From Firmicutes bacterium UBA3871 (GTDB taxonomy: Bacteria; Bacillota; Clostridia; Peptostreptococcales; Anaerovoracaceae): 14,360 nt of DNA. Where the stretch lies: NCBI GenBank assembly GCA_002392265.1, contig DGGP01000073.1:1-14360 (forward strand), in the 5' to 3' direction. Positions 1-14,360 of this stretch are shown piece by piece. The position numbers were made by a program, and so were the translations under genes. Each line of letters starts with the position of its first letter. Position 1 is the stretch's first letter. The notes below the pieces were generated by a model. That model worked only from the letters and a program-made list of their open reading frames with translations, searched no databases and had not been told where the DNA came from.

Positions 1-1
1 G

Positions 2-1981
2 GGAAATCAGAACTGCGGAAAGACTACGCTTTTTAACCAGCTGACCGGTTCAAATCAGCACGTCGGGAATTTCCCGGGCGTGACTGTCGACCAGAAGAGC
101 GGACAGATAAAAGGTCAGCCGGGAACTCTGGTTACAGACCTGCCGGGAATTTATTCGCTGTCTCCTTACACCTCCGAGGAGGTTGTTTCGAGACGATTCA
201 TTCTCGATGAGCATCCTGCCGGAATTATAAACATCGTTGATGCGACAAATATCGAAAGAAATCTGTATTTGACGCTGCAGCTGATGGAGCTCAATGCGCC
301 TATGGTTCTGGCACTCAATATGATGGATGAGGTTCGCGGAAACGGCGGAACCATAAAAATTAACGAGATGGAGGAGCTGCTCGGCATACCTGTCGTTCCG
401 ATTTCGGCTTCAAAAAACGAAGGTGTTGACGAGCTGATCAGACATGCGGTGCATGTGGCAAAGTACCAGGAAACACCGGTGATTACCGACTTTTGCGGGA
501 AAGACCACAAGGGCGGTGCGGTTCACAGAGCACTTCACGGCATCATGCAGCTGATTGAAGACCACGCGGAGCTTGCAGGTATCCCGGTAAGGTTTGCAGC
601 AAGCAAGCTTATCGAGGGCGACAGGTTGCTTTTCGAAGAGCTGAAGCTGACTCAAAACGAAGCCGAGATGATAGAGCACATCATCATCCAGATGGAAGAA
701 GAAAGCGGCATGGACAGAGCTGCTGCCATAGCAGATATGAGATTTTCGTTCATCAGGCGCGTCTGCAGGGCCAGCGTTGTAAAGCCGATGGAGAGCAAGG
801 AGCACCGTCGCAGCCGTCATATAGACGAGTTCCTGACGGGTAAGTTCACTGCCATCCCGGCATTTATATGCATCATGGCACTGGTGTTCTACCTGACCTT
901 TAACGTCATTGGTGCATGGCTTCAGGACTTGTTCGCCGAGGGGGTCGAGCTGGTTACCGGGGCAGTAGCCGGGGCTCTTGAAAACGCAAACGTAAACGGT
1001 GTTTTGTACGGTCTGATTATTGACGGAGCCTTTGAAGGAGTGGGGGCTGTAATCAGCTTCCTGCCTATAATTCTGTGCCTGTTTTTCTTTCTGTCGCTGC
1101 TTGAAGACAGCGGATATATGGCAAGAATTGCTTTTGTAATGGACAAGCTGCTGCGAAAAATCGGCCTTTCCGGGCGCAGTATAGTGCCGATGTTGATAGG
1201 CTTTGGGTGCTCCGTGCCGGCGATTATGGCATCGAGGACTCTGCCTTCGGAGCGAGACAGAAAGATGACCATAATGATGACTCCGTTTATGAGCTGCACC
1301 GCAAAGCTGCCTATATACGGGTTTTTCTGCAATATGTTTTTCCCGGACCGGGCAGGACTCATAATGGTAGGGCTGTACTTCCTGGGAATCATCACGGGAA
1401 TACTGCTGGCGCTGATATCAAAGAGCACTGTGTTCAGGGGCGAGGCGGTTCCTTTTGTGATGGAGCTGCCAAACTACAGACTGCCGGGAATCACCAATGT
1501 TGCGCATCTGCTTTGGGATAAATCAAAGGATTTTCTGCAGCGCGCGTTTACAATAATCTTTATAGCATCAATTGTCGTATGGGCTCTTCAGACCTTTGAC
1601 TTTTCACTCAACATGGTGTCCGATTCAAAGGACAGCATGCTCGCTGCGATTGCGGGCTTCCTCGCACCGCTTTTCAAGCTTCAGGGCTTTGGCGACTGGA
1701 GAATTGTGACTGCACTTGTTGCGGGCTTTATGGCAAAGGAGAGCGTGGTTTCAACGCTTACCGTACTGTTTGGCGGAGATGCGATTCTGGCGGTGCTGTC
1801 AGGTACTGCTGCGGCATCGCTGCTTACATTCTGCCTGCTCTATACACCTTGTGTTGCGGCAATTGCTTCGGTCAGGAGAGAGCTTGGCAGAAAGTGGGCG
1901 CTTGCCATGATTCTGCTGCAGTGCGGCGTGGCTTGGGCGGTGTCGCTTGTCGTTGCTCTGATAGGGGGTGCAATGCTATGA
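2..1981 (+). CDS. feoB: Ferrous iron transporter FeoB (5' end cut by window edge)
   Basis: FeoB imports Fe2+ across the cytoplasmic membrane; an N-terminal G-protein domain controls a membrane channel domain. The reading frame is open from base 2, giving 659 visible residues. It begins inside the P-loop (GNQNCGKTT, residues 1-9), so only about the first ten codons are missing. The other G motifs follow: G2 region NFPGVTV (23-29), G3 DLPG (46-49), G4 NMMD (106-109) and G5 SAS (135-137). The membrane half carries the two FeoB gate motifs, GFGCSVPA (about 400-407, Cys403) and CTAKLPIY (from Cys432), and then MAKESVVSTL, all typical of the family. Length is normal for a clostridial FeoB. The stop codon overlaps the next start as ATGA, so the two genes are translationally coupled. 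A feoA would be expected upstream, outside the window. Identity is very secure. Confidence 0.97.
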   Translation, partial: GNQNCGKTTLFNQLTGSNQHVGNFPGVTVDQKSGQIKGQPGTLVTDLPGIYSLSPYTSEEVVSRRFILDEHPAGIINIVDATNIERNLYLTLQLMELNAPMVLALNMMDEVRGNGGTIKINEMEELLGIPVVPISASKNEGVDELIRHAVHVAKYQETPVITDFCGKDHKGGAVHRALHGIMQLIEDHAELAGIPVRFAASKLIEGDRLLFEELKLTQNEAEMIEHIIIQMEEESGMDRAAAIADMRFSFIRRVCRASVVKPMESKEHRRSRHIDEFLTGKFTAIPAFICIMALVFYLTFNVIGAWLQDLFAEGVELVTGAVAGALENANVNGVLYGLIIDGAFEGVGAVISFLPIILCLFFFLSLLEDSGYMARIAFVMDKLLRKIGLSGRSIVPMLIGFGCSVPAIMASRTLPSERDRKMTIMMTPFMSCTAKLPIYGFFCNMFFPDRAGLIMVGLYFLGIITGILLALISKSTVFRGEAVPFVMELPNYRLPGITNVAHLLWDKSKDFLQRAFTIIFIASIVVWALQTFDFSLNMVSDSKDSMLAAIAGFLAPLFKLQGFGDWRIVTALVAGFMAKESVVSTLTVLFGGDAILAVLSGTAAASLLTFCLLYTPCVAAIASVRRELGRKWALAMILLQCGVAWAVSLVVALIGGAML

Positions 1982-2142
1982 ATTTTGCCAGCTGGGTTGT
2001 GTTAGTCATCCTTGCGGCGGCAGTAATTGCAGCCCTTAGGATATATATAAAAACGGGCAGCTGCGACTGCGGACAAAAGGGCTCGGAATGTTCAAAAAAC
2101 TGCGCATTTCAGAATTGTTGCAAGGCTCAGAAAAACAAATAA
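1978..2142 (+). CDS. FeoB-associated Cys-rich membrane protein
   Basis: This 54-residue protein has one hydrophobic segment (about residues 5-24) and then a short tail with six cysteines (29, 31, 38, 42, 47, 48). That matches the small Cys-rich membrane proteins found directly after feoB in many Firmicutes. The start is the ATG whose last two bases form part of the feoB stop (ATGA), with a purine-rich AGGGGGTG seven bases upstream inside feoB. A longer frame reaching back into feoB exists but lacks this site and would lie wholly inside feoB. The cysteines could bind iron or take part in redox or metal transfer at the FeoB exit; this is inference from position and composition. No function is experimentally settled that I can cite. 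Confidence 0.9.
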   Translation: MNFASWVVLVILAAAVIAALRIYIKTGSCDCGQKGSECSKNCAFQNCCKAQKNK

Positions 2143-2192
2143 ATACAATTAAAAACATACAATCTTTTCATGAATAATAACATACTGTACTA

Positions 2193-2222
2193 TTGTCTTT
2201 TATTTTGCGAGTATGGTATAAT
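2193..2222 (+). promoter_or_regulatory. Sigma-A-like promoter of the HD-GYP / J-domain operon
   Basis: A perfect -10 box TATAAT (2217-2222) is preceded by TGG, giving an extended -10. TTGTCT (2193-2198) lies 18 bases upstream as a -35 (4 of 6 consensus). Transcription would start near 2229, leaving a leader of about 55 bases. A good AAAGGAG ribosome site lies before the ATG at 2285. No FliA-type GCCGATAA box is seen here, so this operon seems to be housekeeping-driven rather than under the late flagellar sigma factor. Confidence 0.65.
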
Positions 2223-2284
2223 CAAATAGTGTTTTATTATCCCGAAGCACACTACAGGCAATTATCATAAAGGAGAAGAATCAT

Positions 2285-3358
2285 ATGAGATTCGTACCAA
2301 CCAACTGCTTGAGGGTAGGCATGGTTGTGGGTGAAAACCTATATAACCAGGCCGGTGACCTATTACTCTCAAGAGGTACACCGCTCACTGATGATTACAT
2401 ATATTCCATAGAACGGCTGAAATATAATGGAATATATATCGAAGACGATATTTCCAGAGATATCGACATCATCAACATAGTAAGCGACAAGGTACGCGCT
2501 AAAACGGTTAGCGGTATCAAAAACGCATTCGTTGATGTCAGCAAAAACTCGGGCGACGCAGTCAAAAGCCTCGCAGAAGCCAAAGAGCAGGTTGAGCAGA
2601 TTGTTGATGAAATCTGCAACAACCCGAGTCTGATGATCAACATGGTGGACATGAAAGTGTTTGATGACTACACTTACTATCATTCGGTAAATGTAGCTAT
2701 CTTGTCCATTGTAATAGGTGTAGCGCTCGGAATGGAGCGTGAAGAGCTTTGTAATTTAGGCTATGGAGCATTGCTTCACGATATCGGCAAGGTGTTTATC
2801 GATAAAGACCTGCTGAATAAAAAGGGCAAGCTCACTGCAGCCGAATTCCAGATATTAAAAAATCACTCCTTGCTTGGGTATGAACATATAAAGAAAGGCT
2901 ACGGAGTTTCAAAAACCTCCTGCATGGCCATACTTGACCACCACGAAAGGTACAGCGGCGGTGGGTATCCTAACGGATTATCGGGAAACAACATATCACT
3001 TTACGGCAGAATCATTTCGGTAGCGGACGTATACGATGCGCTGACCTCCGACCGTCCTTACAGAAGGGCGATGATTCCGGCCGAGGCAATCGAATATATT
3101 ATGGCATCGACCGAAACGCTCTTTGATCCAAAGATTGTAGCGGTATTTGTCAAGAAGATATCACCTTATCCTATCGGCACCTGCGTAAAATTATCGGACG
3201 GTAACACAGGCATCGTTCTCGAAAACAGAGAAGAGCTCTGCCTGCGTCCAAAGCTCAGAATATTCAAGGACAAGGACGGGTTCCTCGACGAACCTTATAT
3301 TATGGATTTAGCGGATTTCGAATCCCTCAATGTAACAATTGTTGACGTAGTTTCCTAA
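2285..3358 (+). CDS. HD-GYP domain cyclic-di-GMP phosphodiesterase
   Basis: HD-GYP proteins hydrolyse the second messenger cyclic-di-GMP with a di- or tri-iron centre. This 357-residue protein has an N-terminal region of about 110 residues that resembles the segment preceding many clostridial HD-GYP domains; no receiver, PAS or membrane segment is visible. The catalytic domain spans about 125-295. Key features are H133 (YYHSVNVA), H165-D166 (LLHDIGK), H194, H219-H220-E221 (DHHER), the signature GGGYP ending at 227-229, and the downstream SVADVYDALTSDRPYR (245-260). All expected metal ligands and the GYP motif appear present, so it is probably active. A short C-terminal part (about 296-357) reads as a small beta-rich extension. 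An AAAGGAG ribosome site precedes the ATG. It is first in an operon; the next gene starts 11 bases after its stop. The substrate is assigned from the family. Confidence 0.93.
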   Translation: MRFVPTNCLRVGMVVGENLYNQAGDLLLSRGTPLTDDYIYSIERLKYNGIYIEDDISRDIDIINIVSDKVRAKTVSGIKNAFVDVSKNSGDAVKSLAEAKEQVEQIVDEICNNPSLMINMVDMKVFDDYTYYHSVNVAILSIVIGVALGMEREELCNLGYGALLHDIGKVFIDKDLLNKKGKLTAAEFQILKNHSLLGYEHIKKGYGVSKTSCMAILDHHERYSGGGYPNGLSGNNISLYGRIISVADVYDALTSDRPYRRAMIPAEAIEYIMASTETLFDPKIVAVFVKKISPYPIGTCVKLSDGNTGIVLENREELCLRPKLRIFKDKDGFLDEPYIMDLADFESLNVTIVDVVS

Positions 3359-3369
3359 CGGAGAAGGGC

Positions 3370-4503
3370 ATGAACAAATTCACCGACTATTACAAGGTCT
3401 TACAAGTTCATTATGAAGCAGACAGCAAGATGATTGAGTCGGCGTATAAATGCCTTTGCAAGCAATATCATCCGGATATAAATACGGCAGCGGATGCGGC
3501 GGATCGCATGAAGGAGCTCAATGAAGCCTATGCGGTCCTCAGTGATCCCGATGCCAGGAGAGAATATCACAAGGAATGGTACCGGATTACTTCAAAACCC
3601 GGTTCTGCAATGATGAGTGAGGAAGACTACCGCAGAGAGCTGGCCACCTCAGTGTTGGACAGCTTTTTTCGTGATATGGTCACGGAAAACTGGGATGCCG
3701 CTTATTCAAAGCTGACCGAGGTGGATCACAGGAATGTGCCTGTCTCGGATTTCCGCGAGTGGAAGGTGGCTGTTGCAAAGCTGCACAAGCTGGCAGATTA
3801 CAAGATTAAATACGAAAAGTCATTCAAAAACTGCGATTACGGCGGTCTGATCTTTAGCGAAATATTGATGTTCACCGTAGAGATGACTGTCCTCGAGATT
3901 GCCAGCGGTCAGATATCGCATGAAAAGTCAAAGAAGTACATGGCTCATGTAGACGATTCGTGGAAGCTGTGCCTCGGCTATGCGGATTTAAAGCCGGTTA
4001 TCGCAAAGTTCAACTATTTCTCGCTTTTAAAAGCACAAAATATGCAGACAGAACGCCTGCATATGCTGAATTACTACGAGCTCCTCGACCAGAGCAAGCG
4101 TGAGCTTGCCAGGTCCCGCAGATACGGAAACAAGATGACGCTGATAATGCTGACATTAAAGTGCAAGCCGAGTGACATGGTGGTTTCGGAGGAATCATAT
4201 CTCGAAAAGTGCATGTCCTATGTCAGCAAGGTTATCTGCCAAACTATCAGACAGACCGATATTGTCGGCAGATACCACGAGGCCAGCTTTGCAATCATAC
4301 TGACGGAAACTCCGATAGAAGCGGGGCGCGATGTTATGGCAAAGCTGATTCAGGCGGCCCGCAGACCGAAGAACCTGAACTACTCTCTGACCGCAGCCTG
4401 CACAGACTGCAAGAGCGATGCTCCTATGGAAGACATATTAAAGGCAGTGCTCAGAAAAGCAGCGCCCGATCAAATAAAAAACGAACTGTCCTACTTTCTG
4501 TAG
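3370..4503 (+). CDS. J-domain protein with C-terminal degenerate GGDEF domain
   Basis: This 377-residue protein combines parts rarely seen together. Residues 4-70 form a J-domain with intact HPD (34-36) and the typical AYAVLSDPDARREY end, so it could stimulate a DnaK ATPase; the zinc-finger and C-terminal domains of true DnaJ are absent. Residues about 85-225 are an unrecognised region; its pattern (ENWDAAYSKL, DFREWKVAV, DDSWKLCLGY) hints at an NTF2-like fold, which is a weak inference. Residues about 235-365 follow the GGDEF pattern (RELARSRRYGNKMTLIML, then GRYHEASFAIILTET), but the active-site GGDEF is replaced by HEASF (303-307) and the usual DxDxFK segment reads LTLKCKPSD. Diguanylate cyclase activity is therefore unlikely. 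The RxxD inhibitory-site signature (R294, D297) sits at the canonical five-residue distance. GGAG lies upstream of the ATG. It is co-transcribed with the HD-GYP gene, which supports a cyclic-di-GMP role. The last codons and stop lie inside the terminator stem. Confidence 0.85.
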   Translation: MNKFTDYYKVLQVHYEADSKMIESAYKCLCKQYHPDINTAADAADRMKELNEAYAVLSDPDARREYHKEWYRITSKPGSAMMSEEDYRRELATSVLDSFFRDMVTENWDAAYSKLTEVDHRNVPVSDFREWKVAVAKLHKLADYKIKYEKSFKNCDYGGLIFSEILMFTVEMTVLEIASGQISHEKSKKYMAHVDDSWKLCLGYADLKPVIAKFNYFSLLKAQNMQTERLHMLNYYELLDQSKRELARSRRYGNKMTLIMLTLKCKPSDMVVSEESYLEKCMSYVSKVICQTIRQTDIVGRYHEASFAIILTETPIEAGRDVMAKLIQAARRPKNLNYSLTAACTDCKSDAPMEDILKAVLRKAAPDQIKNELSYFL

Positions 4504-4514
4504 GACAGTTTTTT
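4484..4514. terminator. Bidirectional intrinsic terminator between convergent operons
   Basis: A perfect 11-base stem, AACTGTCCTAC (4484-4494) with GTAGGACAGTT (4500-4510), has a five-base loop. A T run ends at 4514 on the plus strand, and an A-rich stretch just before the stem (4472-4481) gives a T run when read on the minus strand. It can therefore end both the J-domain operon and the fliD-fliS-fliT operon. The stop codon of the J-domain gene (4501-4503) lies inside the right arm. Confidence 0.88.
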
Positions 4515-4554
4515 AGTTTATGTCTTATTCAGTTGTAAACATATACATGTATTC

Positions 4555-4962
4555 CTACTTTTTTGTGTCCAGATAAACGCCTGTAGTTTGCGCGGAGCCT
4601 ATCTTGTAGCCACCGAGGATATTTCTCTCGTTGTGGTCGGTCTCCATACCTCTGAGGGCGATTTCGCGCTCCTCATAGATACGCTTGACCACATCCTTGT
4701 CAAAGGCTTGAATCAGGTTAACCTTTTCGTTAATCTGCTGCCTCTGCTGCGGTGAAAGCTCTTTGTCAAAGATGAGTCTATGAGCGTCTTCAAGCGCGTT
4801 AATACGTTCAATTACTTCTACTCGTTTATTTCCAAGGCGCTCATAGTCCTCCCATTTGTCCTGGTTGAGGCTGCTCATGATTTCTTCAGAGCAGGAGAGC
4901 AGCTCGGAGAGCATACCCAGCTTTGCGTCAAAATACTCTTGTGAATTTGTTATGTTCATCAT
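4555..4962 (-). CDS. fliT: Probable FliT-like flagellar export chaperone
   Basis: This 135-residue, mostly helical and charged protein lies directly after fliS, where fliT is normally found. Its pattern of a first helix (YFDAKLGMLSELLSCSEEIM), a DKWEDYERLGNKRVEVIERINAL-like second helix and a third helix ending near residue 80 resembles FliT/FlgN-type small export chaperones, which hold FliD or hook-associated proteins before secretion. The C-terminal 40 residues (from about 95) do not recall a known motif. Two adjacent ATGs are possible (4962 and 4959); the AAAGG site at 4973-4977 fits the first better. It is the last gene of the operon, 30 bases after fliS, and ends just before the shared terminator. 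Assignment rests mostly on position and helical pattern, so the symbol is tentative; sequence similarity in this family is always weak. Confidence 0.68.
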   Translation of the reverse strand: MMNITNSQEYFDAKLGMLSELLSCSEEIMSSLNQDKWEDYERLGNKRVEVIERINALEDAHRLIFDKELSPQQRQQINEKVNLIQAFDKDVVKRIYEEREIALRGMETDHNERNILGGYKIGSAQTTGVYLDTKK

Positions 4963-4992
4963 CTGCGTTCATCCTTTGAATTAGGCCACAAA

Positions 4993-5385
4993 TTAACCCA
5001 CAGACTTTTTTTGTGAACGGGAAATCTTGTCAGCTTCCTTGAAAGCATCCTTCAGGTTATCGAGAATGCCGGATAATCTCTTCAGAGTTTCGGTATCCTT
5101 TGCAACTAAAGCTCTGCCGAGTTCATCGTTCACGAACAGATAGATATCTGCCAGATTGATTGAAATAGCATAGTTCATATCCAGAGAGTTTCTCAGAGTG
5201 GATACGATTTTCTGAGCCTTTGCAACGCAGTTGTACGCACCTACAGCGTCATGCTTTTCGGTCAGTAAACATGCGAAGTTAATCTGCTTGCTTGCTTCCT
5301 CGAATAACTTTACGAGAATTTCACCTTTTGTTAATGTCTGTAATGATTGGTTCTTATAAACCTGGTATGGGTTGCTATACTGCAT
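4993..5385 (-). CDS. fliS: Flagellin export chaperone FliS
   Basis: FliS binds the C-terminus of flagellin in the cytoplasm and prevents early polymerisation before export. The protein shows the FliS pattern: NPYQVYKNQSLQTLTKGEIL at the N-terminus (the NxYxxxxVxTxxP-like start), VKLFEEASKQINFA, AQKIVSTLRNSLDMNYA, INLADIYLFVNDELGRA and a final helix near LKDAFKEADK. I choose the ATG at 5385 (130 residues). The AAGGA site at 5396-5400 is ten bases from it, whereas the upstream in-frame GTG at 5394 is almost touching that site. The gene lies between fliD and the fliT-like gene on the minus strand, with a UUCG hairpin in the preceding gap. Identity is secure. Confidence 0.93.
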   Translation of the reverse strand: MQYSNPYQVYKNQSLQTLTKGEILVKLFEEASKQINFACLLTEKHDAVGAYNCVAKAQKIVSTLRNSLDMNYAISINLADIYLFVNDELGRALVAKDTETLKRLSGILDNLKDAFKEADKISRSQKKSVG

Positions 5386-5395
5386 ATTTGTCACA

Positions 5396-5400
5396 TCCTT
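5396..5400 (-). promoter_or_regulatory. Ribosome binding site deciding the fliS start
   Basis: Read on the minus strand this is AAGGA. It lies ten bases from the ATG at 5385 but only one base from the alternative GTG at 5394, so it selects the ATG. An overlapping out-of-frame ATG at 5396 is followed at once by TGA and is not a usable start. Confidence 0.7.
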
Positions 5401-5458
5401 GCTTCAAAATTATTGTAGTAGCTTACAATCTGTGTAGTTATAACTTATTGTTTATTGA

Positions 5459-5472
5459 AAGCCCGAAGGCTT
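5459..5472 (-). repeat. UUCG-capped hairpin between fliD and fliS
   Basis: On the minus strand the RNA reads AAGCC-UUCG-GGCUU, a five-base stem closed by C(UUCG)G, an exceptionally stable tetraloop. It begins four bases after the fliD stop codon. There is no proper U run after it (UCAAUAAACAA), so it is more likely an mRNA-stabilising or partial attenuation element than a full terminator. Confidence 0.55.
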
Positions 5473-5476
5473 AAAA

Positions 5477-7471
5477 TCAGCCGCCGCTTGTGTAGGTACC
5501 GATCAGTGAAGAATAAGCGTTCATGTTGGAAACCAGCGACTCCAGAGCGGAGAACTTTTTCCACCAGTACTGCTGTCTTTCTTCGAGACGATCCTGCAGG
5601 GTTTCGATATATTTCTTTATATCTTTAATCTTGCTCGAAATGTTGTTTTCCGTGTCGGAAGCGGTGTTGCCGATTCCGGCCTTTTCAATCAGGGAACCGC
5701 GCGAGCCCTTTGGACCGCTGGTCTTGATAGCGGAGTTTACGGCTTCCTTTAATGCGTTGCCAAAGCCGGTCTCACCGAGGAAGAAATCCTTTACCTGCTC
5801 GCTCTTTGTTGAGAGTGCGCTGTCAAGCTTTTCTTCGTTTATGGTAAGCTTGCCGTTCTCGGTCCAGCCCGCCGACTGAACACCCATCTCGTACATTGAG
5901 AAACCGTTGTAGCTCGTGTACATCATGGTACTCAGCTTTGAGGAAATGCTGTTCAGTGTGGTGTCGTTTCTGAGTATGCCTGCCTTTGCCTTTTCTTCCC
6001 ACTTTTCAATCTCGCTGTCGGTCATTTCCTTCTTTTGAGCATCGGTCAGAGGGGCGTAGTCTTTAGCTCTTTCCTCTTTTCTGTATTTATTTATCATCTC
6101 TATCATTTCATTGTAGTCGTTTACAAAACCTACTACCATGTCCTTGACAGAGGATGTATCTGAGCTGGTTTCAACCTTTATTGCCTCATTTGTAGTGCTT
6201 TCGAGAGTCAGGAACATTCCGTTTACGGAGATGTTTTTGTTGCTTTCTCTTTCAACGCGCTCGCCGTCTACATAAAAGACCGCGTTCTGACCGGAGGTAA
6301 CTTCCGGAGCATTTGCACTTTCATTTGTGAGTCCGAGCGATGCAAGGAAACCATCTTCGTCCTTGATATCGATGGTGCTTGCTGCGCCTGTAGCACTGCT
6401 TGTGAGAGTAAATGTATCGCTAACCTCAGAGTAGGATAATGTCACACCTGCCTTTGAGTTATTAATCTGATTCATTACGCTTCTGAGCGAAGTGTTGTTC
6501 TTTATGCTAAACTCCACGCCGTTAATTTCAATCTTGTAGGTTGTAACGCCTTCTTCATCGGTGTTTCCGCCGTCTGCGGCCTTTGCAAAAGCGCCGCTTT
6601 CCTGAAGTGAGGAGATCTGCTTGTTCAGCGCGATCTTGTTTGTGGAGCCGTTTGTGATTCCGAGTGCTTCGAGTGGGGCATTGTCATCGCCAACCGCATA
6701 GATTGAAAGGGCAGAGCTCTTTGCAGTGTTGAACTGAAGCTTGCCGTCATCCGTGTAGGATGTGCTTACGCGGCCCGCGCCGAATGCTTCGTCGAGCTTT
6801 TTGTCGAGAGCCGAAGTGAAGGCCTTGCTTGCCAGCTCCGGATCGGAAGGATCCTCAGCTCTTGCGGCATTGTAAGCATTGTAGAAATCCGCAACAAAGT
6901 CGCCGTCAAAGCTTACTGTCTTTGTGCTGCCGTCGAGTGTGAACGAAAGGCTCTTTCCCGCGAGGGAACCCACGAGCGTTTGGTCGAGGTAATCTGCGTC
7001 CTCATAATTCTGGCCGTTTAACAGAGCCTGAATGTCGATGCTGCCGATAATCTTTCCCGAAACAGCGCCGGATTTAATTGTCATTCCGCTTGCAAGCTGC
7101 TCAATGCTGTTAACGGTGAAAGATGTTGAATAGCTTTCAGCATTTGTAACAAGCGAAATCGCACTGCCTGATGCTGTAGCGCTGATGGTGTTGAAGGAAG
7201 AGGACTTCGTGATATTTGTGCTCGATGTAATATCCAGATACTTTGACTGGAAGGCTTGCATCTTTGTAATAATCTCACGATAAGCTTCCTGCTGCCATTC
7301 AAGCTTTTGCACCTGCTGATTCTGCTTATTAATTTTTGTCTGCTCGGTGTTGGTGAGGCTTTCTACGAGAGCATCCGTATCGATTCCGGACGCCATTCCG
7401 CCAAAGCCCTTTACGCCGCTGAGCGTCGATGCACTGTTTGTGCTGCTTGAAGTTGAATTAACCGATGACAT
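5477..7471 (-). CDS. fliD: Flagellar filament cap protein FliD
   Basis: FliD caps the growing filament and guides flagellin folding after export. The 664-residue protein has the FliD N-terminal domain (about 17-115: GGMASGIDTDALVESL, then a coiled-coil-like EQTKINKQNQQVQKLEWQ and YREIITKMQAFQSKYLD). A long variable middle follows, including a flagellin hook IN-like segment (about 311-375: YKIEINGVEFSIKNNTSLRSVM). The C-terminal domain spans about 395-655 (SVKDMVVGFVNDYNEMI; MYEMGVQSAGW; KLTINEEKLDSAL; a final coiled coil; SSLIGTYTSGG). The ends look complete for assembly into the pentameric cap. The start ATG has an AAGGAGG ribosome site seven bases upstream (7477-7484). It is first in fliD-fliS-fliT and is preceded by a sigma-D-like promoter. 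The middle surface-exposed region is the part expected to vary between strains. Confidence 0.96.
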   Translation of the reverse strand: MSSVNSTSSSTNSASTLSGVKGFGGMASGIDTDALVESLTNTEQTKINKQNQQVQKLEWQQEAYREIITKMQAFQSKYLDITSSTNITKSSSFNTISATASGSAISLVTNAESYSTSFTVNSIEQLASGMTIKSGAVSGKIIGSIDIQALLNGQNYEDADYLDQTLVGSLAGKSLSFTLDGSTKTVSFDGDFVADFYNAYNAARAEDPSDPELASKAFTSALDKKLDEAFGAGRVSTSYTDDGKLQFNTAKSSALSIYAVGDDNAPLEALGITNGSTNKIALNKQISSLQESGAFAKAADGGNTDEEGVTTYKIEINGVEFSIKNNTSLRSVMNQINNSKAGVTLSYSEVSDTFTLTSSATGAASTIDIKDEDGFLASLGLTNESANAPEVTSGQNAVFYVDGERVERESNKNISVNGMFLTLESTTNEAIKVETSSDTSSVKDMVVGFVNDYNEMIEMINKYRKEERAKDYAPLTDAQKKEMTDSEIEKWEEKAKAGILRNDTTLNSISSKLSTMMYTSYNGFSMYEMGVQSAGWTENGKLTINEEKLDSALSTKSEQVKDFFLGETGFGNALKEAVNSAIKTSGPKGSRGSLIEKAGIGNTASDTENNISSKIKDIKKYIETLQDRLEERQQYWWKKFSALESLVSNMNAYSSLIGTYTSGG

Positions 7472-7545
7472 GTCGTACCTCCTTGTACTAATGGGAGCTA
7501 ATTACTTATATATAAAGTCTGTGTTTTCTTAACTTCTCAATATTA

Positions 7546-7571
7546 TTATCGTCATCTGCAGACAAAACTTA
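7546..7571 (-). promoter_or_regulatory. Sigma-D (FliA-type) promoter of fliD-fliS-fliT
   Basis: Read on the minus strand, TAAG (7571-7568) is followed after 14 bases by GACGATAA (7553-7546), one mismatch from the flagellar sigma consensus GCCGATAA. The bases after TAAG are TTTT, similar to the extended -35 of enteric class 3 promoters. Transcription would start near 7539, about 68 bases before the fliD ATG. This is the expected control for a late flagellar operon. Confidence 0.72.
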
Positions 7572-7590
7572 AGCGAAAAGAAAAGAAAAA

Positions 7591-7621
7591 ATTAAAAAAC
7601 CGGGGAAGAAATATCCCCGGT
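7591..7621 (-). terminator. Intrinsic terminator after cheR
   Basis: The stem CCGGGGA (7600-7606) pairs with TCCCCGG (7614-7620), with one further A-T pair outside and a seven-base loop. On the minus strand it is followed by TTTTTTAATTTTTT. It begins 13 bases after the cheR stop and separates cheA-cheR from the fliD promoter. Confidence 0.9.
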
Positions 7622-7633
7622 CAAAATCCAAGA

Positions 7634-8437
7634 TTATTCTTTGCGGTAAACAGAAGGACATACATAAGTGAACTTGTGATTACAGCCCGACAGGGATTCA
7701 CTGTGACCTATGAAGAAATATCCGCCCGGAAGCATCGCATTGTAGCATTTGTTTACGATAGCTTCTTTGGTAGGCAGGTCAAAGTATATCATTACATTCC
7801 TGCAGAATATAGCCTGGAAAGGCTTTTTGAAATTAAAGTCGTCGAGGAGATTGAAATATCTGTAGGCGACCTTTGCCTTTAGTGCATCGACAACCTGGTA
7901 ATGGTTGTCATCAACCTTTTTGAACCATTTTGAAACCCATTCAGGCGGCATTTTTTCGATGTCAGTTGCATCGTAGATGCCTTGTTTTGCCTGGGAAAGA
8001 ACCTTCATCGAGATATCCGAAGCCAGAATTGTGGAATCCCAGCTGCTCGCCTTTGAACCGAGATAATTCTGGGTAATCAGTGCGATTGTATAAGGTTCCT
8101 GACCTGACGAGCAGGCCGCCGACCATACACGAAGGTCTGTGGATTTCAGAGTATGATCAATCCACGGAAGCACTGTGTCCTGATAGAACTGGAAGTGCTC
8201 ATTTTCTCGCATGAAGTAGGTATGGTTTGTCGTAAGCTTGCTGACGATATTTACAAGCTCTTCCGGTTGAGTCTGAAGATACTTGAAATAATCCATGTAG
8301 GTTTTGTATCCGTGCTCGGTAACAAAGTTGCCGAGGCGACCCTCGATGAGAGGGCGCTTTTGGGAAAGGTTAACTCCGTAGGAGTCCTTCATCAGCTTTA
8401 CTATAAAGTTAAATTCTTCGTCTGTCAAATAGAGCAT
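7634..8437 (-). CDS. cheR: Chemotaxis protein methyltransferase CheR
   Basis: CheR methylates glutamates of chemoreceptors using S-adenosylmethionine, which sets adaptation against CheB or CheC/CheD. The 267-residue protein has the small N-terminal helical domain (about 1-68, binds the receptor), then LTTNHTYFMREN (68-79), SAM motif I WSAACSSGQEPYTIA (105-119), acidic D141 in LASDIS, FCRNVMIYFD (211-220) and GGYFFIGHSESL near the C-terminus. No receptor-tethering extension is visible; length is normal for a Gram-positive CheR. The ribosome site AAAGGG lies eight bases before the ATG. The gene follows cheA by 61 bases on the same strand with no hairpin between, so the two are likely one transcript, ended by the terminator at 7591-7621. 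Confidence 0.96.
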   Translation of the reverse strand: MLYLTDEEFNFIVKLMKDSYGVNLSQKRPLIEGRLGNFVTEHGYKTYMDYFKYLQTQPEELVNIVSKLTTNHTYFMRENEHFQFYQDTVLPWIDHTLKSTDLRVWSAACSSGQEPYTIALITQNYLGSKASSWDSTILASDISMKVLSQAKQGIYDATDIEKMPPEWVSKWFKKVDDNHYQVVDALKAKVAYRYFNLLDDFNFKKPFQAIFCRNVMIYFDLPTKEAIVNKCYNAMLPGGYFFIGHSESLSGCNHKFTYVCPSVYRKE

Positions 8438-8498
8438 TGAAATAACCCTTTCTAAAATTAAATTTTCAAATCACAACAATTTCTGTAAAACACTAAAA

Positions 8499-10589
8499 TC
8501 AGTAATTTGCAAGGATATTCGGAACGTCGAGAATCAGGCTGATGGAACCATCGCCCATGATTGTACAACCGGAGATTCCGATATCTCTGCCGATGAGCTG
8601 CGTAATGAACTGAGGCATAGGTTTTACTACTACCTGATGCTTTCCGATGAGTTCATCCACAAAGAGGCAGGCGAGACGGTCACCCGTATCAACCAGCATC
8701 AGAATACCTTCTTCGATGTTCTGAATGCAACCGTCAATGTGGAAAATATTGCCCACTCTGATGATAGGGTAGCAAGCTCCTCTGATCATAATCATCTCAC
8801 GACCTGCAGGATCTGTGAAAGGCTGATCCGCAGTAGGCTTGAAGGATTCGCGAATGTTGGAAATAGGCACTGTGTAGATGTGCTGTCCGATTCGGATATC
8901 CATACTGTCGATGATGGCGAGTGTCAGAGGAATCTTGAAGTATACGGTCATGCCGGCACCGAGTGTGGACTCGATGGTAATGGTACCGCCGACCTTTTCA
9001 ATATTCTGCTTTACAACGTCCATACCAACGCCTCTGCCGGAGTACTCGGTAACTTTTTCCTTTGTGGAGAAGCCCGGAGCCATCAGCAGGTTGAAGATTT
9101 CTTTTTCACTGTATTCGCTCTCTGCCTTTGTAAGGATTCCCTTTTCCTTTGCCTTGTTCAGGAGCTTTTCAGGATTCAGTCCGCGACCGTCGTCGGAGCA
9201 GGCGATGATGATATCGCCGCCCAGGTTCTGTGCGGAAAGAATAATCTGTGCTGTCTTGTTCTTGTCTGTCTTTTCACGCTCTGCTCTGTCCTCGATACCG
9301 TGGTCCATGGAGTTACGAACTACGTGCATGAGAGGGTCTGCAATGGCATCGATGATGGTCTTGTCAACTTCGGTAGTTTCGCCCATGAGAATGAGCTCTA
9401 CATCCTTGTCAAGCTTTTTGCCCATGTCGCGTACGATACGACGCATCTTCTGGAAAGTAGGTGCGATAGGTACCATTCGGAGAGACATGGAGATGTCCTG
9501 CAGCTCGTTTGTGAGCTTGCGGAGCTGGGAAGCAGCCTTTTCAAAGTTCTCAAGATGGAGTCCCTCTAAATCCGGGCTGCCGGAAACCATCGATTCCGAA
9601 ATAACTATTTCGCCGACGAGGTCGTTTAATGCAACGAGCTTGTCGAGATCTACATTTATCAGATTCTGTTTTACGCCACCGCCACCGGTAGGTGCTGCCG
9701 CACCACCCTGTGCAGCAGGAGCCGCGCCACCGGCCGCAGCCTTTGGAGCATCGTCAGCCTTTGCAGCGTCAGCCTTTGGAGCATCGCCGGCTTTTGCAGC
9801 AGCCTTTGCAGCAGCTTGTGCCGCAGCCACAGCTTCGTCACCGAGAGTATCGGTGAAGCTGACATTAGCTACGCAAGGTGAGCCCTTTGCAACCGAAAGA
9901 ATTTCATCCTGCGGCTTGTCGGAGGTCAGCTTGCAGTAGAAGCCTTTTTCTACGATTACAGCGCTGGCGTCAGGATTGCCGTCCAGGCTGGCAGGGCTGG
10001 TCTGGAGAACCTTGCCGATTGCGTTAAGCTTGTTAACCAGCATGAACGCGCGGATGTTTTCCATTTGGCAGCCTTCGTCAAATTGTGCGTAGAGGTAATA
10101 AACCTGTCCGTCTGCCGGAGCCTCCTCTGCAGGAGCAGGAGCTGCCGCCGGCTTTTCAGCAGGCGCCTCGCCGCTATCCTCTTTAAGCAGATTGAGGAAG
10201 TCCAATATTTCATTTACGAGAGCATCATTCTCTTCGCAAAGAGGCTGTTCCGTCTGAATCTTTTCAACTTCTTCTTTTAGGAAGTCGGAAACTCTGAGTA
10301 CCAGGTCAAACAGGTCTTCAAAGTGTTCCTGAGAAAGACCGTTATCTCTGATTACGAAGAATAAATCTTCGAGTTTGTGAGAAACGGAAGCGATGATGTT
10401 GAACTCCATCATTGCGGAAGAGCCTTTGACGGTATGCATGATGCGGAAAATCTCGTTGATATTTTCTTCGGAAAGGGCGCCGTTCTTTTCGGCATCCAGA
10501 AGGATATCATCGAGCTGGTTTAACATCTCGGTAGTTTCAAACAAATAAACGCTAAGCATTGAGTTGTTGCTGTTGTCAAAATCACTCAT
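8499..10589 (-). CDS. cheA: Chemotaxis histidine kinase CheA
   Basis: CheA autophosphorylates in receptor arrays and passes phosphate to CheY. With the ATG at 10589 it has 696 residues. P1 (HPt, about 8-110) carries the phosphorylated H52 in MHTVKGSS. A CheY-binding-like P2 spans about 162-246. An Ala/Pro/Gly-rich linker (about 252-305) with repeated APKADAAKAD-like units follows. P3 dimerisation starts near 310. The P4 kinase has the N box DPLMHVVRNSMDHGIE (418-433), DDGRGL (466-471), APGFSTK and GRGVGMDVV (518-526). The CheW-like P5 occupies about 557-690. All catalytic motifs are intact. The start is chosen because AAGGTGG ends nine bases from this ATG; the upstream in-frame GTG at 10601 overlaps that very site and has none of its own. 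It is first in cheA-cheR. Confidence 0.96.
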   Translation of the reverse strand: MSDFDNSNNSMLSVYLFETTEMLNQLDDILLDAEKNGALSEENINEIFRIMHTVKGSSAMMEFNIIASVSHKLEDLFFVIRDNGLSQEHFEDLFDLVLRVSDFLKEEVEKIQTEQPLCEENDALVNEILDFLNLLKEDSGEAPAEKPAAAPAPAEEAPADGQVYYLYAQFDEGCQMENIRAFMLVNKLNAIGKVLQTSPASLDGNPDASAVIVEKGFYCKLTSDKPQDEILSVAKGSPCVANVSFTDTLGDEAVAAAQAAAKAAAKAGDAPKADAAKADDAPKAAAGGAAPAAQGGAAAPTGGGGVKQNLINVDLDKLVALNDLVGEIVISESMVSGSPDLEGLHLENFEKAASQLRKLTNELQDISMSLRMVPIAPTFQKMRRIVRDMGKKLDKDVELILMGETTEVDKTIIDAIADPLMHVVRNSMDHGIEDRAEREKTDKNKTAQIILSAQNLGGDIIIACSDDGRGLNPEKLLNKAKEKGILTKAESEYSEKEIFNLLMAPGFSTKEKVTEYSGRGVGMDVVKQNIEKVGGTITIESTLGAGMTVYFKIPLTLAIIDSMDIRIGQHIYTVPISNIRESFKPTADQPFTDPAGREMIMIRGACYPIIRVGNIFHIDGCIQNIEEGILMLVDTGDRLACLFVDELIGKHQVVVKPMPQFITQLIGRDIGISGCTIMGDGSISLILDVPNILANY

Positions 10590-10598
10590 CGTCTTTTC

Positions 10599-10605
10599 CA
10601 CCTTT
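10599..10605 (-). promoter_or_regulatory. Ribosome binding site deciding the cheA start
   Basis: On the minus strand this is AAGGTGG, placed to serve the ATG at 10589. It contains the GTG at 10601, which would otherwise extend the protein by four residues; that GTG has only AT-rich sequence upstream and is unlikely to be used. Confidence 0.6.
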
Positions 10606-10681
10606 TCAATTAAAATACTGTTAGCTAAAAATTATGTTTATTATTCATTTCGTTCGCCGCGTCACAACACGACCGCGCGAA

Positions 10682-10708
10682 CTATCGGCAGTAAATATAT
10701 GTTATATA
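10682..10708 (-). promoter_or_regulatory. Sigma-D-like promoter of cheA-cheR
   Basis: On the minus strand GCCGATAG (10689-10682) matches the flagellar sigma -10 consensus in seven of eight positions. TATA (10708-10705) lies 15 bases upstream as a -35 (three of four against TAAA). Transcription would start near 10675, about 85 bases before the cheA ATG. The -10 is strong and the -35 is average. Confidence 0.58.
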
Positions 10709-10742
10709 GCATATAGACATAATATACACCTATACAACATAG

Positions 10743-10772
10743 ATTATAACACATAGTGCAACAAATACGCAA
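10743..10772 (-). promoter_or_regulatory. Possible extended -10 sigma-A promoter upstream of cheA
   Basis: On the minus strand TATAAT (10748-10743) is preceded by TGT (an extended -10). TTGCGT (10772-10767) lies 18 bases upstream (three of six as a -35). It could give basal transcription of cheA-cheR in addition to the flagellar sigma promoter. The surrounding region is very AT-rich, so chance matches are possible. Confidence 0.4.
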
Positions 10773-10875
10773 ACATATTTCATGATTTTTTCACAATTAT
10801 CACACAATTTTTTAGCAATTCGCCCAAATTATATGCCTACATATTTATTATGCCCCGTATTATGCCCCGAGAGAG

Positions 10876-10945
10876 CCGCACCCGTGCTGCTCCATTTCCG
10901 GCCTGCCCCGCCGCACCCGTGCAGTTCCGTTTTCGGCCTGCCCCG
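10876..10945. repeat. Two tandem 35-base GC-rich repeats
   Basis: Unit 1 covers 10876-10910 and unit 2 covers 10911-10945 with no spacer. They agree at 31 of 35 positions (differences at positions 13, 15, 19 and 23). Both begin CCGCACCCGTGC and end GGCCTGCCCCG. The GGCCTGCC part is also present inverted at 11014-11021 as GGCAGGCC. Confidence 0.85.
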
Positions 10946-10958
10946 AGTGAGCCGCGCT

Positions 10959-10987
10959 GCCGCGAGCCCTCTTGCAGCTCGGGCGGC
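10959..10987. repeat. Hairpin inside the GC-rich island
   Basis: GCCGC plus GAGC (10959-10967) can pair with GCTC (10977-10980) and GCGGC (10983-10987) around a nine-base loop, leaving a two-G bulge. There is no T run, so it is not a terminator. Confidence 0.6.
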
Positions 10988-11021
10988 AGCTATGAGGCGA
11001 GCTCTCTCGGCTTGGCAGGCC

Positions 11022-11048
11022 CGGGGCGTCAAAAAGAACGACGCCCCG
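11022..11048. repeat. Perfect 9-base hairpin at the right side of the GC-rich island
   Basis: CGGGGCGTC (11022-11030) pairs perfectly with GACGCCCCG (11040-11048) around the loop AAAAAGAAC. Neither strand has a T run after the stem, so a terminator role is unlikely. It could be the 3' stem of a structured RNA or the end hairpin of a small mobile element. Confidence 0.7.
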
Positions 11049-11143
11049 CATGCACACCGCACGTACAAACACTCTCTGCGCTTCTCTTCGATTATGCCCT
11101 GACAGATAACAGAAAATCGGCTGTCAAAAAATTACAATTATGC

Positions 11144-11172
11144 TTGCATTATACAATTTACTGGTATATAAT
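11144..11172 (+). promoter_or_regulatory. Promoter of the PD-(D/E)XK-like gene
   Basis: TTGCAT (11144-11149) is followed after exactly 17 bases by a perfect TATAAT (11167-11172). Transcription would start near 11179, which leaves a leader of about 280 bases before the ATG at 11459. There is no other equally good promoter closer to the gene. Confidence 0.55.
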
Positions 11173-11178
11173 TACAAT

Positions 11179-11458
11179 TGTCTCACAAAATTCCATAAAA
11201 ATGTTTTTGGTAGTGGTATGTTCGCAGAAATGAATCAATTTTTACCACTGAAATTGCTAGAAACGTGCGGATTTTAGAAAATAATGGCGCTTGCAAAGAA
11301 AAGTAAGGCTTGCATGGGTGGTTAAGTGAGAAGAAAAATCATCTTTTGCCACAAGAATTTTCCAAAACGCAAAAAATCGAGAAAAACGAGTGGCAAACAA
11401 AAAGGGAAAGTGATGTTTTTACCACATCGGCAACTTTCATAAACAAAGGAGATTAGAG
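11179..11458 (+). promoter_or_regulatory. Long putative 5' leader of the PD-(D/E)XK-like gene
   Basis: No gene is visible here beyond minute frames of 13-15 codons without ribosome sites. The stretch alternates complementary short motifs: GTGGTA (11213), TACCAC (11243), GTGGTT (11318), TTTGCCAC (11345), GTGGCAAA (11390) and TACCAC (11420). AGTGGTA/TACCACT (11212-11218 with 11243-11249) and TTTGCCAC/GTGGCAAA (8 bases) can form stems, and TTTTTACCAC occurs twice. The final copy is about 20 bases before the AAAGGAG ribosome site (11445-11451). Alternative folding that controls translation is possible but unproven. It matches no riboswitch I know. Confidence 0.35.
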
Positions 11459-12259
11459 ATGTACAGAATACAGAACATAATTAACATGCGTGTGGAGGCA
11501 TTGGAACGCGCAATTAAAATGGCGAACAAGGAATTAAAGAGAGCGCCCGAAGGCTGGCTGCGCATTTCAAAGAGCGGGAACCGTGATAGGTTTTACAGAG
11601 TTACGGAAAAGCATGAGATGAAAGGGCAGTATATCCCCAAAGACAACATGCAGGCAGTTAAAGCACTGGCGCAAAAGGACTACGCTGAAAGATTCCTAAA
11701 GGCAGCTACCGCAGAGCGTGACTACTGGGGAAAGGTTTTGGCAAAGCTCACAGTCTTTGGCACCGACACCGCCTATGAAAACCTCTCCGATAAGCGCAGG
11801 GCATTGGTGAACCCATACATACTGCCGGACGATAAGTACGCACAGCTTTGGCAAGCGGTGGACTACGATGCATCCCCATACAATGCGGAGAACAAGAAGC
11901 TTCCGACGCGCAGGGGCGACTTCGTACGCTCAAAGTCAGAGGTTATGATTGCAAATGTCCTTGACGATTTGGGCATCCCTTATAGATATGAGCAAGGCAT
12001 CAGAATGAAAGATGGGCATATATACTATCCCGATTTCACATTGCTGGATATATGTAAGAGGGATGAAGTCTATCTAGAGCATTTCGGAATGATCGATGAT
12101 TCGCAATATCTTATGCGGGCATGCAAAAAAGTGCACGATTATGAGAGAAACGGCATATTTTTCGGAGTAAATCTTTTAGCAACATTCGAAACTTCAACCA
12201 TGCCACTCAACGCCGAACTCACAAGAGAAATGTTGCGCAGGTTCTTCAAAATCAGGTGA
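11459..12259 (+). CDS. Orphan protein with PD-(D/E)XK-like nuclease fold
   Basis: This 266-residue protein matches no family I can name with certainty. The N-terminal half (about 1-110) is basic and helical (coiled-coil-like MRVEALERAIKMANKELKRA) with a WLRISKSGNRDRFYRV segment. The C-terminal half (about 155-248) has the layout of a PD-(D/E)XK nuclease core: RSKSEVMIANVLDDLGI with E161, YRYEQGI, YYPDFTLL with D192, and EVYLEHFGMIDD with E207-H208, then a helix and NGIFFGVNLLATFET. The ExHFG variant recalls the nuclease-like domain attached to some UvrD-type helicases. The classic catalytic Lys is not at the usual place, so activity is uncertain. It has a good ribosome site (AAAGGAG), its own promoter and its own terminator. 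It is alone between motility genes and may be a recently acquired defence or DNA-processing gene. Confidence 0.7.
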   Translation: MYRIQNIINMRVEALERAIKMANKELKRAPEGWLRISKSGNRDRFYRVTEKHEMKGQYIPKDNMQAVKALAQKDYAERFLKAATAERDYWGKVLAKLTVFGTDTAYENLSDKRRALVNPYILPDDKYAQLWQAVDYDASPYNAENKKLPTRRGDFVRSKSEVMIANVLDDLGIPYRYEQGIRMKDGHIYYPDFTLLDICKRDEVYLEHFGMIDDSQYLMRACKKVHDYERNGIFFGVNLLATFETSTMPLNAELTREMLRRFFKIR

Positions 12260-12333
12260 GTCATTACATTTATCTGTAAATAAGCTGATAGATTTGCAAA
12301 TCAAGCCATTCACGACCACAAGTGACTGCTTTT

Positions 12334-12361
12334 AGACTGCTTTTCGTCGGTCTCTTTTTTA
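12334..12361 (+). terminator. Probable terminator after the PD-(D/E)XK-like gene
   Basis: AGACTG (12334-12339) pairs with CGGTCT (12348-12353; one G-T wobble) around an eight-base loop and is followed by C and six T (12355-12360). The stem is short, so termination may be moderate. A near-tandem duplication of GACTGCTTTT (12324-12333 and 12335-12344) overlaps it. Confidence 0.6.
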
Positions 12362-12381
12362 TTCCAATTTGTTTGTACATA

Positions 12382-12390
12382 TGATATAAT
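12382..12390 (+). promoter_or_regulatory. Extended -10 promoter of the FliK-like gene
   Basis: TGA followed by TATAAT (12385-12390) forms an extended -10 element; the matching -35 (TTCCAA, 17 bases upstream) is poor. Transcription would start near 12397, about 42 bases before the GTG start. GCGATAT at 12394-12400 resembles part of a sigma-D -10 box, but no TAAA lies at the right distance. Confidence 0.5.
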
Positions 12391-12438
12391 TAAGCGATAT
12401 TTGGCGAAACTAAATTAAGAAAGAAAGGAGGCGAGAGC

Positions 12439-14328: not shown

Positions 14329-14337
14329 GCGAATCTG

Positions 14338-14351
14338 GTGCCAGTCCCCAA
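14338..14351. repeat. Possible start of a dispersed GGTGCCAGTCCCC repeat
   Basis: The motif TGGTGCCAGTCCCC follows the FliK-like stop by nine bases and runs toward the window edge. From memory, similar GTGCCAGTCCCC / GGGGACTGGCAC words occur in dispersed palindromic repeats linked to REP-type transposases in Firmicutes. The partner arm, if any, is outside the window, so this is only a flag. Confidence 0.25.
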
Positions 14352-14360
14352 AGTGGAAAA

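Follow-up and report, generated by a model that had tools for sequence, protein, structure and literature searches.

Can a second messenger directly control a DnaK co-chaperone? The question is raised by a gene in a 14,360-nucleotide stretch of DNA from Firmicutes bacterium UBA3871 (Anaerovoracaceae; contig DGGP01000073.1, positions 1 to 14,360, of assembly GCA_002392265.1). We call this whole stretch the window. The gene, at positions 3370 to 4503, encodes a 377-residue protein with a J-domain at its N-terminus and a degenerate GGDEF domain at its C-terminus, and we refer to this protein and its relatives as the J-GGDEF family. For this family, we computed the domains, the folds, the loss of the catalytic motif, the retention of the residues of the I-site (at which GGDEF proteins bind cyclic di-GMP, or c-di-GMP), the spread across genomes, and the gene neighborhood. 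The best explanation for the protein, to which we give a probability of roughly 0.52, is that it is a c-di-GMP-gated co-chaperone of DnaK that is linked to the flagellar and chemotaxis machinery.

Scanning a single genome for each species, we found 246 candidate relatives. We kept the best 80 loci, and all of these (80/80) contain a matching open reading frame (ORF). Two of the 80 were left out of our census because contig ends cut them before the I-site; the census has 82 rows, namely the window, 78 loci, and three extra proteins. We also considered a further set of 56 proteins from outside the census (59 new proteins, minus two that are identical to census rows and one that is cut short), but these are not 56 independent tests because, judging from their source names, many come from one group of Oscillospiraceae. 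The parts of the gene are listed below; fractions of 82 and of 56 refer to these two sets, and AF2 is AlphaFold2.

3370..4503, + strand: the whole gene for the 377-residue protein, with J, NTF2-like, and degenerate GGDEF domains (from the ORF, Pfam, AF2, and family comparison)
3385..3567, + strand: J-domain, residues 6-66 (Pfam DnaJ, 67.9 bits; PDB match to DnaJ2, 9dyv_A, E = 6.9e-16)
3469..3477, + strand: HPD motif, residues 34-36 (kept in 81/82 and 56/56)
3619..3984, + strand: middle domain, NTF2-like or MecA_N-like, residues about 84-205
3991..4047, + strand: helix of residues 208-226, before the GGDEF domain (AF2 secondary structure)
4054..4476, + strand: degenerate GGDEF fold, residues 229-369
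4111..4113, + strand: R248, at the position of R313 of PleD, the I-site arginine that comes from the neighboring GGDEF domain (82/82; 53/56)
4249..4260, + strand: RxxD motif of the I-site, here RQTD, R294-D297 (R in 81/82, D in 82/82; RxxD in 56/56)
4276..4290, + strand: former GG(D/E)EF motif, now HEASF, residues 303-307 (GG[DE]EF in 0/82 and 0/56)
4342..4344, + strand: K325, at the position of R390 of PleD, also in the I-site (K or R in 78/82; 55/56)

A preliminary description, made from the sequence of the window, had proposed an intact HPD J-domain followed by a degenerate GGDEF-like domain, and both domains are borne out by the Pfam match, the two alignments, and the AF2 model. The structure prediction, which it had suggested as a check, also gave a middle domain, apparently NTF2-like, that it had missed; W131 of this middle domain is invariant in the census (82/82).

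The C-terminal part has a GGDEF fold with a dead active site (AF2 model and census alignment). We rejected an active diguanylate cyclase: GG[DE]EF is absent from every row of both sets, and aspartate at the first metal position (262) is gone as well (0/82). The former motif has drifted, and its commonest letters are G (25), D (34), S (16), Q (19), and F (41 of 82). The I-site has not drifted in this way. In PleD, the I-site is described as R359, D362, and R390 of one GGDEF domain plus R313 of its neighbor (PMC7288161; here and below, sources are cited for excerpts). All four positions are kept in 78/82 census rows and in 52/56 further proteins, and the spacings (46, 3, and 28 residues) are identical in PleD and in residues 248, 294, 297, and 325 of our protein. 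The only positions of the GGDEF domain that are at least 95% conserved are E245, R248, R251, R294, D297, and E313, and three of these are I-site residues. Judged by its residues, the family has both features of degenerate-GGDEF receptors, a dead active site and a retained I-site. The pocket might have changed its ligand to another nucleotide such as cyclic GMP-AMP (cGAMP), guanosine tetraphosphate (ppGpp), or GTP: the evidence on the ligand comes from sequence, and lysine replaces PleD's R390 in 60/82 rows. Given that the four positions and their spacing are the same as in PleD, which binds c-di-GMP, we consider a different ligand to be very improbable.

Do dead GGDEF domains keep RxxD anyway? 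Seven related genomes have 123 GGDEF matches; we set aside six that belong to the family and five that are partial, and pooled the remaining 112 with the 18 matches of the window's own genome as controls. The alignment profile for these was built from the 86 control domains with GG[DE]EF, and we dropped duplicates, the window, and a single row whose motif contains a gap. RxxD is present in just 3 of the 26 degenerate controls from these eight related genomes, as compared to 81/82 family rows (Fisher's exact test, p = 3e-19, which is only indicative because the rows are related). The family's count is from a separate alignment; with the control profile, RxxD was found in 62 of the 63 family rows that were detected, while 19/82 were missed. 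Two of the three degenerate controls with RxxD have the near-canonical motif GGDEY, and the third, which has a dead GGDEF domain, resembles BTAD transcription factors. RxxD itself is widespread; what marks the family, by alignment, is that the motif is nearly invariant after the loss of the active site.

The third of those controls may be of interest in its own right. The protein at L245:1496-2755 (contig G095:C36) matches Pfam BTAD with 76 bits, and its C-terminal dead GGDEF domain (22.6 bits, just below the cut-off) has the motif NDSQF and keeps RxxD, as RKGD. It is possibly another unreported c-di-GMP receptor.

CdgA and PssE are proven c-di-GMP receptors with a dead GGDEF domain and the RxxD signature (PMC3271064, PMC4125290), and PssE, in which DKDDA replaces the GGDEF motif, is from a Firmicute (PMC4125290). 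With PopA, PelD, CdgA, and PssE, the J-GGDEF family shares the GGDEF fold, the dead active site, and the placement of RxxD five residues before the former motif. By analogy with PopA, CdgA, and PssE, the dead GGDEF domain of our family probably binds c-di-GMP at the I-site. The difference lies in the output: in the J-GGDEF family, this part is a J-domain, and DnaK would be the effector. To our knowledge, the dead GGDEF domains of PopA, PelD, CdgA, and PssE are not fused to a chaperone part.

At the other end of the protein, the J-domain fold and the HPD motif place it among the Hsp40 proteins (Pfam, census). We rejected DnaJ classes A and B because neither the DnaJ C-terminal domain (PF01556) nor the zinc domain (PF00684) is among the Pfam matches of the protein or among those of 64 members of the family at E ≤ 1e-3. 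Its domain content makes it a clostridial Hsp40 of class C (J-domain only). DjlA is an example of a class C J-domain protein. AtcJ is another (PMC6715715). Like these, the family has the J-domain with HPD and lacks the zinc and C-terminal domains of DnaJ (Pfam), but its non-J part is different, being NTF2-like plus a dead GGDEF domain. The middle domain may resemble the MecA_N/NTF2-like N-terminal domain of penicillin-binding proteins of the PBP2a/PBP5 type, but the domain here is presumably cytoplasmic, lies between two other domains, and has no transpeptidase attached. We also considered an anti-phage system and rejected it, as the protein has no PADLOC match at E ≤ 0.01.

What might the client be? 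The genes around the J-GGDEF gene in the window are as follows.

2285..3358, + strand: HD-GYP protein, ending 11 bases upstream of the J-GGDEF gene (Pfam HD_5, 102.5 bits)
3360..3367, + strand: Shine-Dalgarno-like GGAGAAGG ahead of the J-GGDEF ORF (read from the sequence)
4484..4514, + strand: terminator-like stem-loop and T-run that span the stop codon (read by eye, unscored)
4555..5394, - strand: fliT-like and fliS genes, convergent with the J-GGDEF gene (Pfam FliS, 80 bits; the FliT match, at 22.3 bits, is below Pfam's cut-off of 29.5)
5477..10601, - strand: fliD, cheR, and cheA (Pfam)

The J-GGDEF gene is thus convergent with fliT-like, fliS, fliD, cheR, and cheA genes. Across the family, we could score the neighborhood at 75 of the 80 loci (at the other five, a longer overlapping ORF displaced the gene), and each cluster of neighbors was named after a Pfam scan of one representative. 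At 31/75 loci (a raw count), a flagellar or chemotaxis cluster lies within five ORFs. The arrangements vary: HD-GYP upstream with fliS and fliD convergent; a che operon upstream; a methyl-accepting chemotaxis protein (MCP) upstream; a gene similar to the C-terminal part of FlhB adjacent; or CheW and an MCP downstream. Also, carB directly precedes the gene in seven Family XIII loci. On a tree of 79 rows, the flagellar/chemotaxis label requires 11 changes, at least 8 of which are forced by well-supported branches; several rows are on long branches and were flagged as unsure, and four unscored loci were counted as "no group." Among 296 genomes sampled from the order, FlhA is present in 18/19 genomes that carry the family, as compared to 143/296 overall. 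Together, the 31/75 loci and the co-occurrence with FlhA favor a role linked to flagella or chemotaxis, without one fixed partner.

The preliminary description had treated the HD-GYP protein as the partner and had guessed at a motility or envelope protein as the client. As a fixed partner, HD-GYP had to be rejected: besides the window, it is directly upstream at only 13/75 loci (and within five ORFs at 16). The gap is under 30 bases, or there is a small overlap, at 12 of these 13. Among the 13 upstream HD-GYP genes, the HD.GK motif fits 12 and a strict GYP expression fits 5; the window's HD-GYP fits both. In this part of the family, the HD-GYP gene is a probable operon partner, and the terminator-like stem-loop would close the gene pair. 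The survey of domain order and neighbors that it had called for shows that the domain order recurs in a clostridial family while no neighbor is fixed. Motility as the source of the client fits the recurrent flagellar and chemotaxis genes, and nothing that we found points to an envelope client; we lean slightly towards a motility protein.

Two other explanations draw on these neighbors. First, c-di-GMP could control the placement of the protein (at the pole or the flagellar base) with a constitutive J-domain, and so determine where DnaK is recruited instead of how active the J-domain is. The chemotaxis and flagellar neighbors would suit this, and the degenerate-GGDEF I-site proteins PopA and CdgA are localized to the pole (PMC12564702, PMC3271064). 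On the other hand, the fold carries no information on position in the cell, and we think that control of placement is unlikely. Second, the dead GGDEF domain could dock on the adjacent HD-GYP phosphodiesterase and either bring DnaK to it or tune its activity. The tight spacing of the HD-GYP genes, in the window and elsewhere, would make sense if so, and contacts between HD-GYP and GGDEF domains are known for RpfG. But 62/75 loci have no HD-GYP gene directly upstream (at 4 of these, the sequence contains no upstream ORF), which makes such an adaptor improbable.

Several observations weigh against a c-di-GMP-gated co-chaperone with a flagellar or chemotaxis client. At 44/75 loci, there is no flagellar or chemotaxis gene within five ORFs, in some cases because the sequence ends. 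In a clade of 16 rows, murA is directly upstream (16/16) instead of such genes, with tmk, yaaR, holB, and PSP1 following in most. One carrier genome (G309) has no match to FlhA. RxxD alone is common in working cyclases: 55 of the 103 canonical or nearly canonical controls have it. Within the family, one row (L105) lacks HPD, another (L098) has lysine at R294, and R248 is lost in 3/56 further proteins. The AF2 model of the whole chain has a predicted TM-score (pTM) of just 0.50, so how the domains are positioned relative to each other is uncertain. As to the partner, 7 of the 8 other carrier genomes that we searched have a full HSP70, but G287, which is a single contig of 4.9 Mb and has the J-GGDEF gene, has no match to a full HSP70, to GrpE, or to the 378-residue DnaJ that its congeners contain. 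An assembly gap or a real loss might account for this. In the window's own metagenome-assembled genome (MAG; 70% complete), the HSP70 matches are only MreB-like, GrpE has no match, and the other J-domain match is truncated by the start of its contig.

To these we add the conservation of E245, R251, and E313, which are not listed as I-site residues and are conserved as strongly as those that are. Part of the retention could reflect an ordinary structural surface, and D297 may be kept partly for structure. This raises the possibility that the GGDEF fold is only a dimerization or docking module that binds no nucleotide, with the arginines and D297 serving folding, the dimer interface, or a protein partner. 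Also, in the census alignment, the stretch that corresponds to the substrate residues of active GGDEFs has a changed sequence and differs in length between rows, which implies that the domain has been remodeled. However, the 3/26 dead GGDEF domains with RxxD imply that the fold does not need this motif, and the four positions that the family retains coincide exactly with the contacts to the ligand given for PleD (PMC7288161). We view a scaffold without a ligand as unlikely, yet we rank it first among the alternatives, followed by placement by c-di-GMP, the HD-GYP adaptor, and another ligand.

How might a c-di-GMP-gated co-chaperone work? I-site binding is described as cross-linking two GGDEF domains (PMC7288161). 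In our proposal, c-di-GMP, probably as an intercalated dimer, would bind R294, D297, and K325 of one chain and R248 of its neighbor, and would lock the two chains together via their GGDEF domains. The helix of residues 208-226, possibly a dimer stalk, would carry the change and reposition the NTF2-like domain, a likely client-binding or docking part, along with the J-domain. The level of c-di-GMP would then decide whether a client from the flagellar or chemotaxis machinery receives DnaK or is denied it. DnaK is reported to serve flagellum assembly, via the export of FliC, in Pseudomonas (PMC11816700). Whether the nucleotide gates DnaK, and with which sign, we regard as an even bet. Taken as a whole, the proposal that this is the first J-domain co-chaperone under direct second-messenger control, with I-site cross-linking switching DnaK for a flagellar or chemotaxis client, is tentative and a little short of even odds.

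By analogy, the nearest precedent for this idea is a pair of PilZ-DnaK chaperones from Myxococcus xanthus, CsdK1 and CsdK2. CsdK2 has a full PilZ binding motif and might bind c-di-GMP (PMC10313047). As in our family, a c-di-GMP-type domain is joined to the Hsp70 system, but in CsdK1 and CsdK2, as described there, the domain is PilZ instead of GGDEF and is fused to DnaK itself instead of to a co-chaperone. Neither PilZ nor Hsp70 is among the Pfam matches of the J-GGDEF protein. In the open-licence PMC literature (titles and abstract openings; preprints not covered), we found no description of a J-GGDEF protein. Each part is known, and the combination of a J-domain with a dead GGDEF domain is apparently undescribed in the literature that we searched. 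The suggestion of an undescribed system in the preliminary description therefore holds for the family, while the coupling of c-di-GMP to Hsp70 has a precedent in CsdK1/CsdK2 (PMC10313047).

By sequence similarity, the J-GGDEF proteins form a divergent clostridial family that is found in several families of the class, with identity to the window's protein falling to about 23%. At least 18 of 99 genomes (including the window's own) have a relative that matches the protein over all or nearly all of its length, in G009 as two pieces; the remaining matches listed among the 99 are to J-domain or GGDEF parts only. Named strains with the family include Sinanaerobacter chloroacetimidivorans, Butyribacter intestini, Mobilitalea sibirica, Sporobacter termitidis, and Eubacterium sp. 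MSJ-13, and most of the other carrier records are MAGs. A profile search of the protein database found 72 proteins at E ≤ 1e-30 among 7995 candidates scored. Their source names include "DnaJ domain-containing protein," "diguanylate cyclase (GGDEF)-like protein," and "CbpA/GGDEF domain-containing protein," so annotation pipelines had already seen the fusion. In the sample of 296 genomes from the order, the middle-domain profile has 47 matches at E ≤ 1e-3, and we took the 19 at E < 1e-20 as the family (10 of these proteins were read). The 28 weaker matches were dropped; those that we read were lipoproteins, a penicillin-binding protein, and one other. In a class-wide sample, 5/393 genomes, including the window's own, have matches at E ≤ 1e-9. 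Of these, the match in G345 is a J-GGDEF protein (L277) and the match in G587 is a lipoprotein-like ORF outside the family (L278); we read neither the ORF of G110 nor that of G406, and the former is similar in length and score to L265 and L268, lipoprotein-like ORFs from its genus. We also looked for plasmid-borne relatives: matches occur in 118 plasmid records, but all of them cover less than 80% of the query.

Some relatives have unusual features. L277 has 564 residues and matches Pfam DnaJ and GGDEF. Its linker and its GGDEF domain both contain long low-complexity inserts; even so, it retains RxxD (as RAID). The lipoprotein-like L265, L268, L273, and L278 have the same NTF2-like domain (middle-domain profile), and L265 also matches Pfam MecA_N and TPR. 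In 11/80 relatives (L037, L039-L045, L047, L051, and L054), a variable linker is followed by a C-terminal tail, GKY..SDILGFN...KNHF, which looks like a docking peptide. Two more relatives have a variant form, the tail is absent from the window's own clade, and a search of the neighboring ORFs gave no match to it.

Elsewhere in the window, two proteins have no significant match in Pfam. The second half of the 266-residue protein at 11459-12259 matches the PADLOC candidate models PDC-S68 (E = 7.8e-25) and HEAT_CxxC_PDDEXK (E = 1.7e-9), so this is perhaps a PD-(D/E)XK-type nuclease. The 629-residue protein at 12439-14328 is near the flagellar genes, and we would guess that it is a divergent FliK-like protein. 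Neither in the window nor in nine related loci (of the best 80) did any Rfam family, and hence any c-di-GMP riboswitch beside the gene, reach its gathering score.

The means by which c-di-GMP stops swimming are known mostly from transcription, riboswitches, and flagellar brakes. If our reading is correct, then c-di-GMP would also directly control Hsp70's choice of clients, and its outputs would come to include protein folding or remodeling. The family is frequent enough to allow experiments, with named strains among its members (the best 80 of 246 candidate relatives), and the conservation of the I-site offers a clear point mutant with which to ask if a second messenger can steer DnaK.
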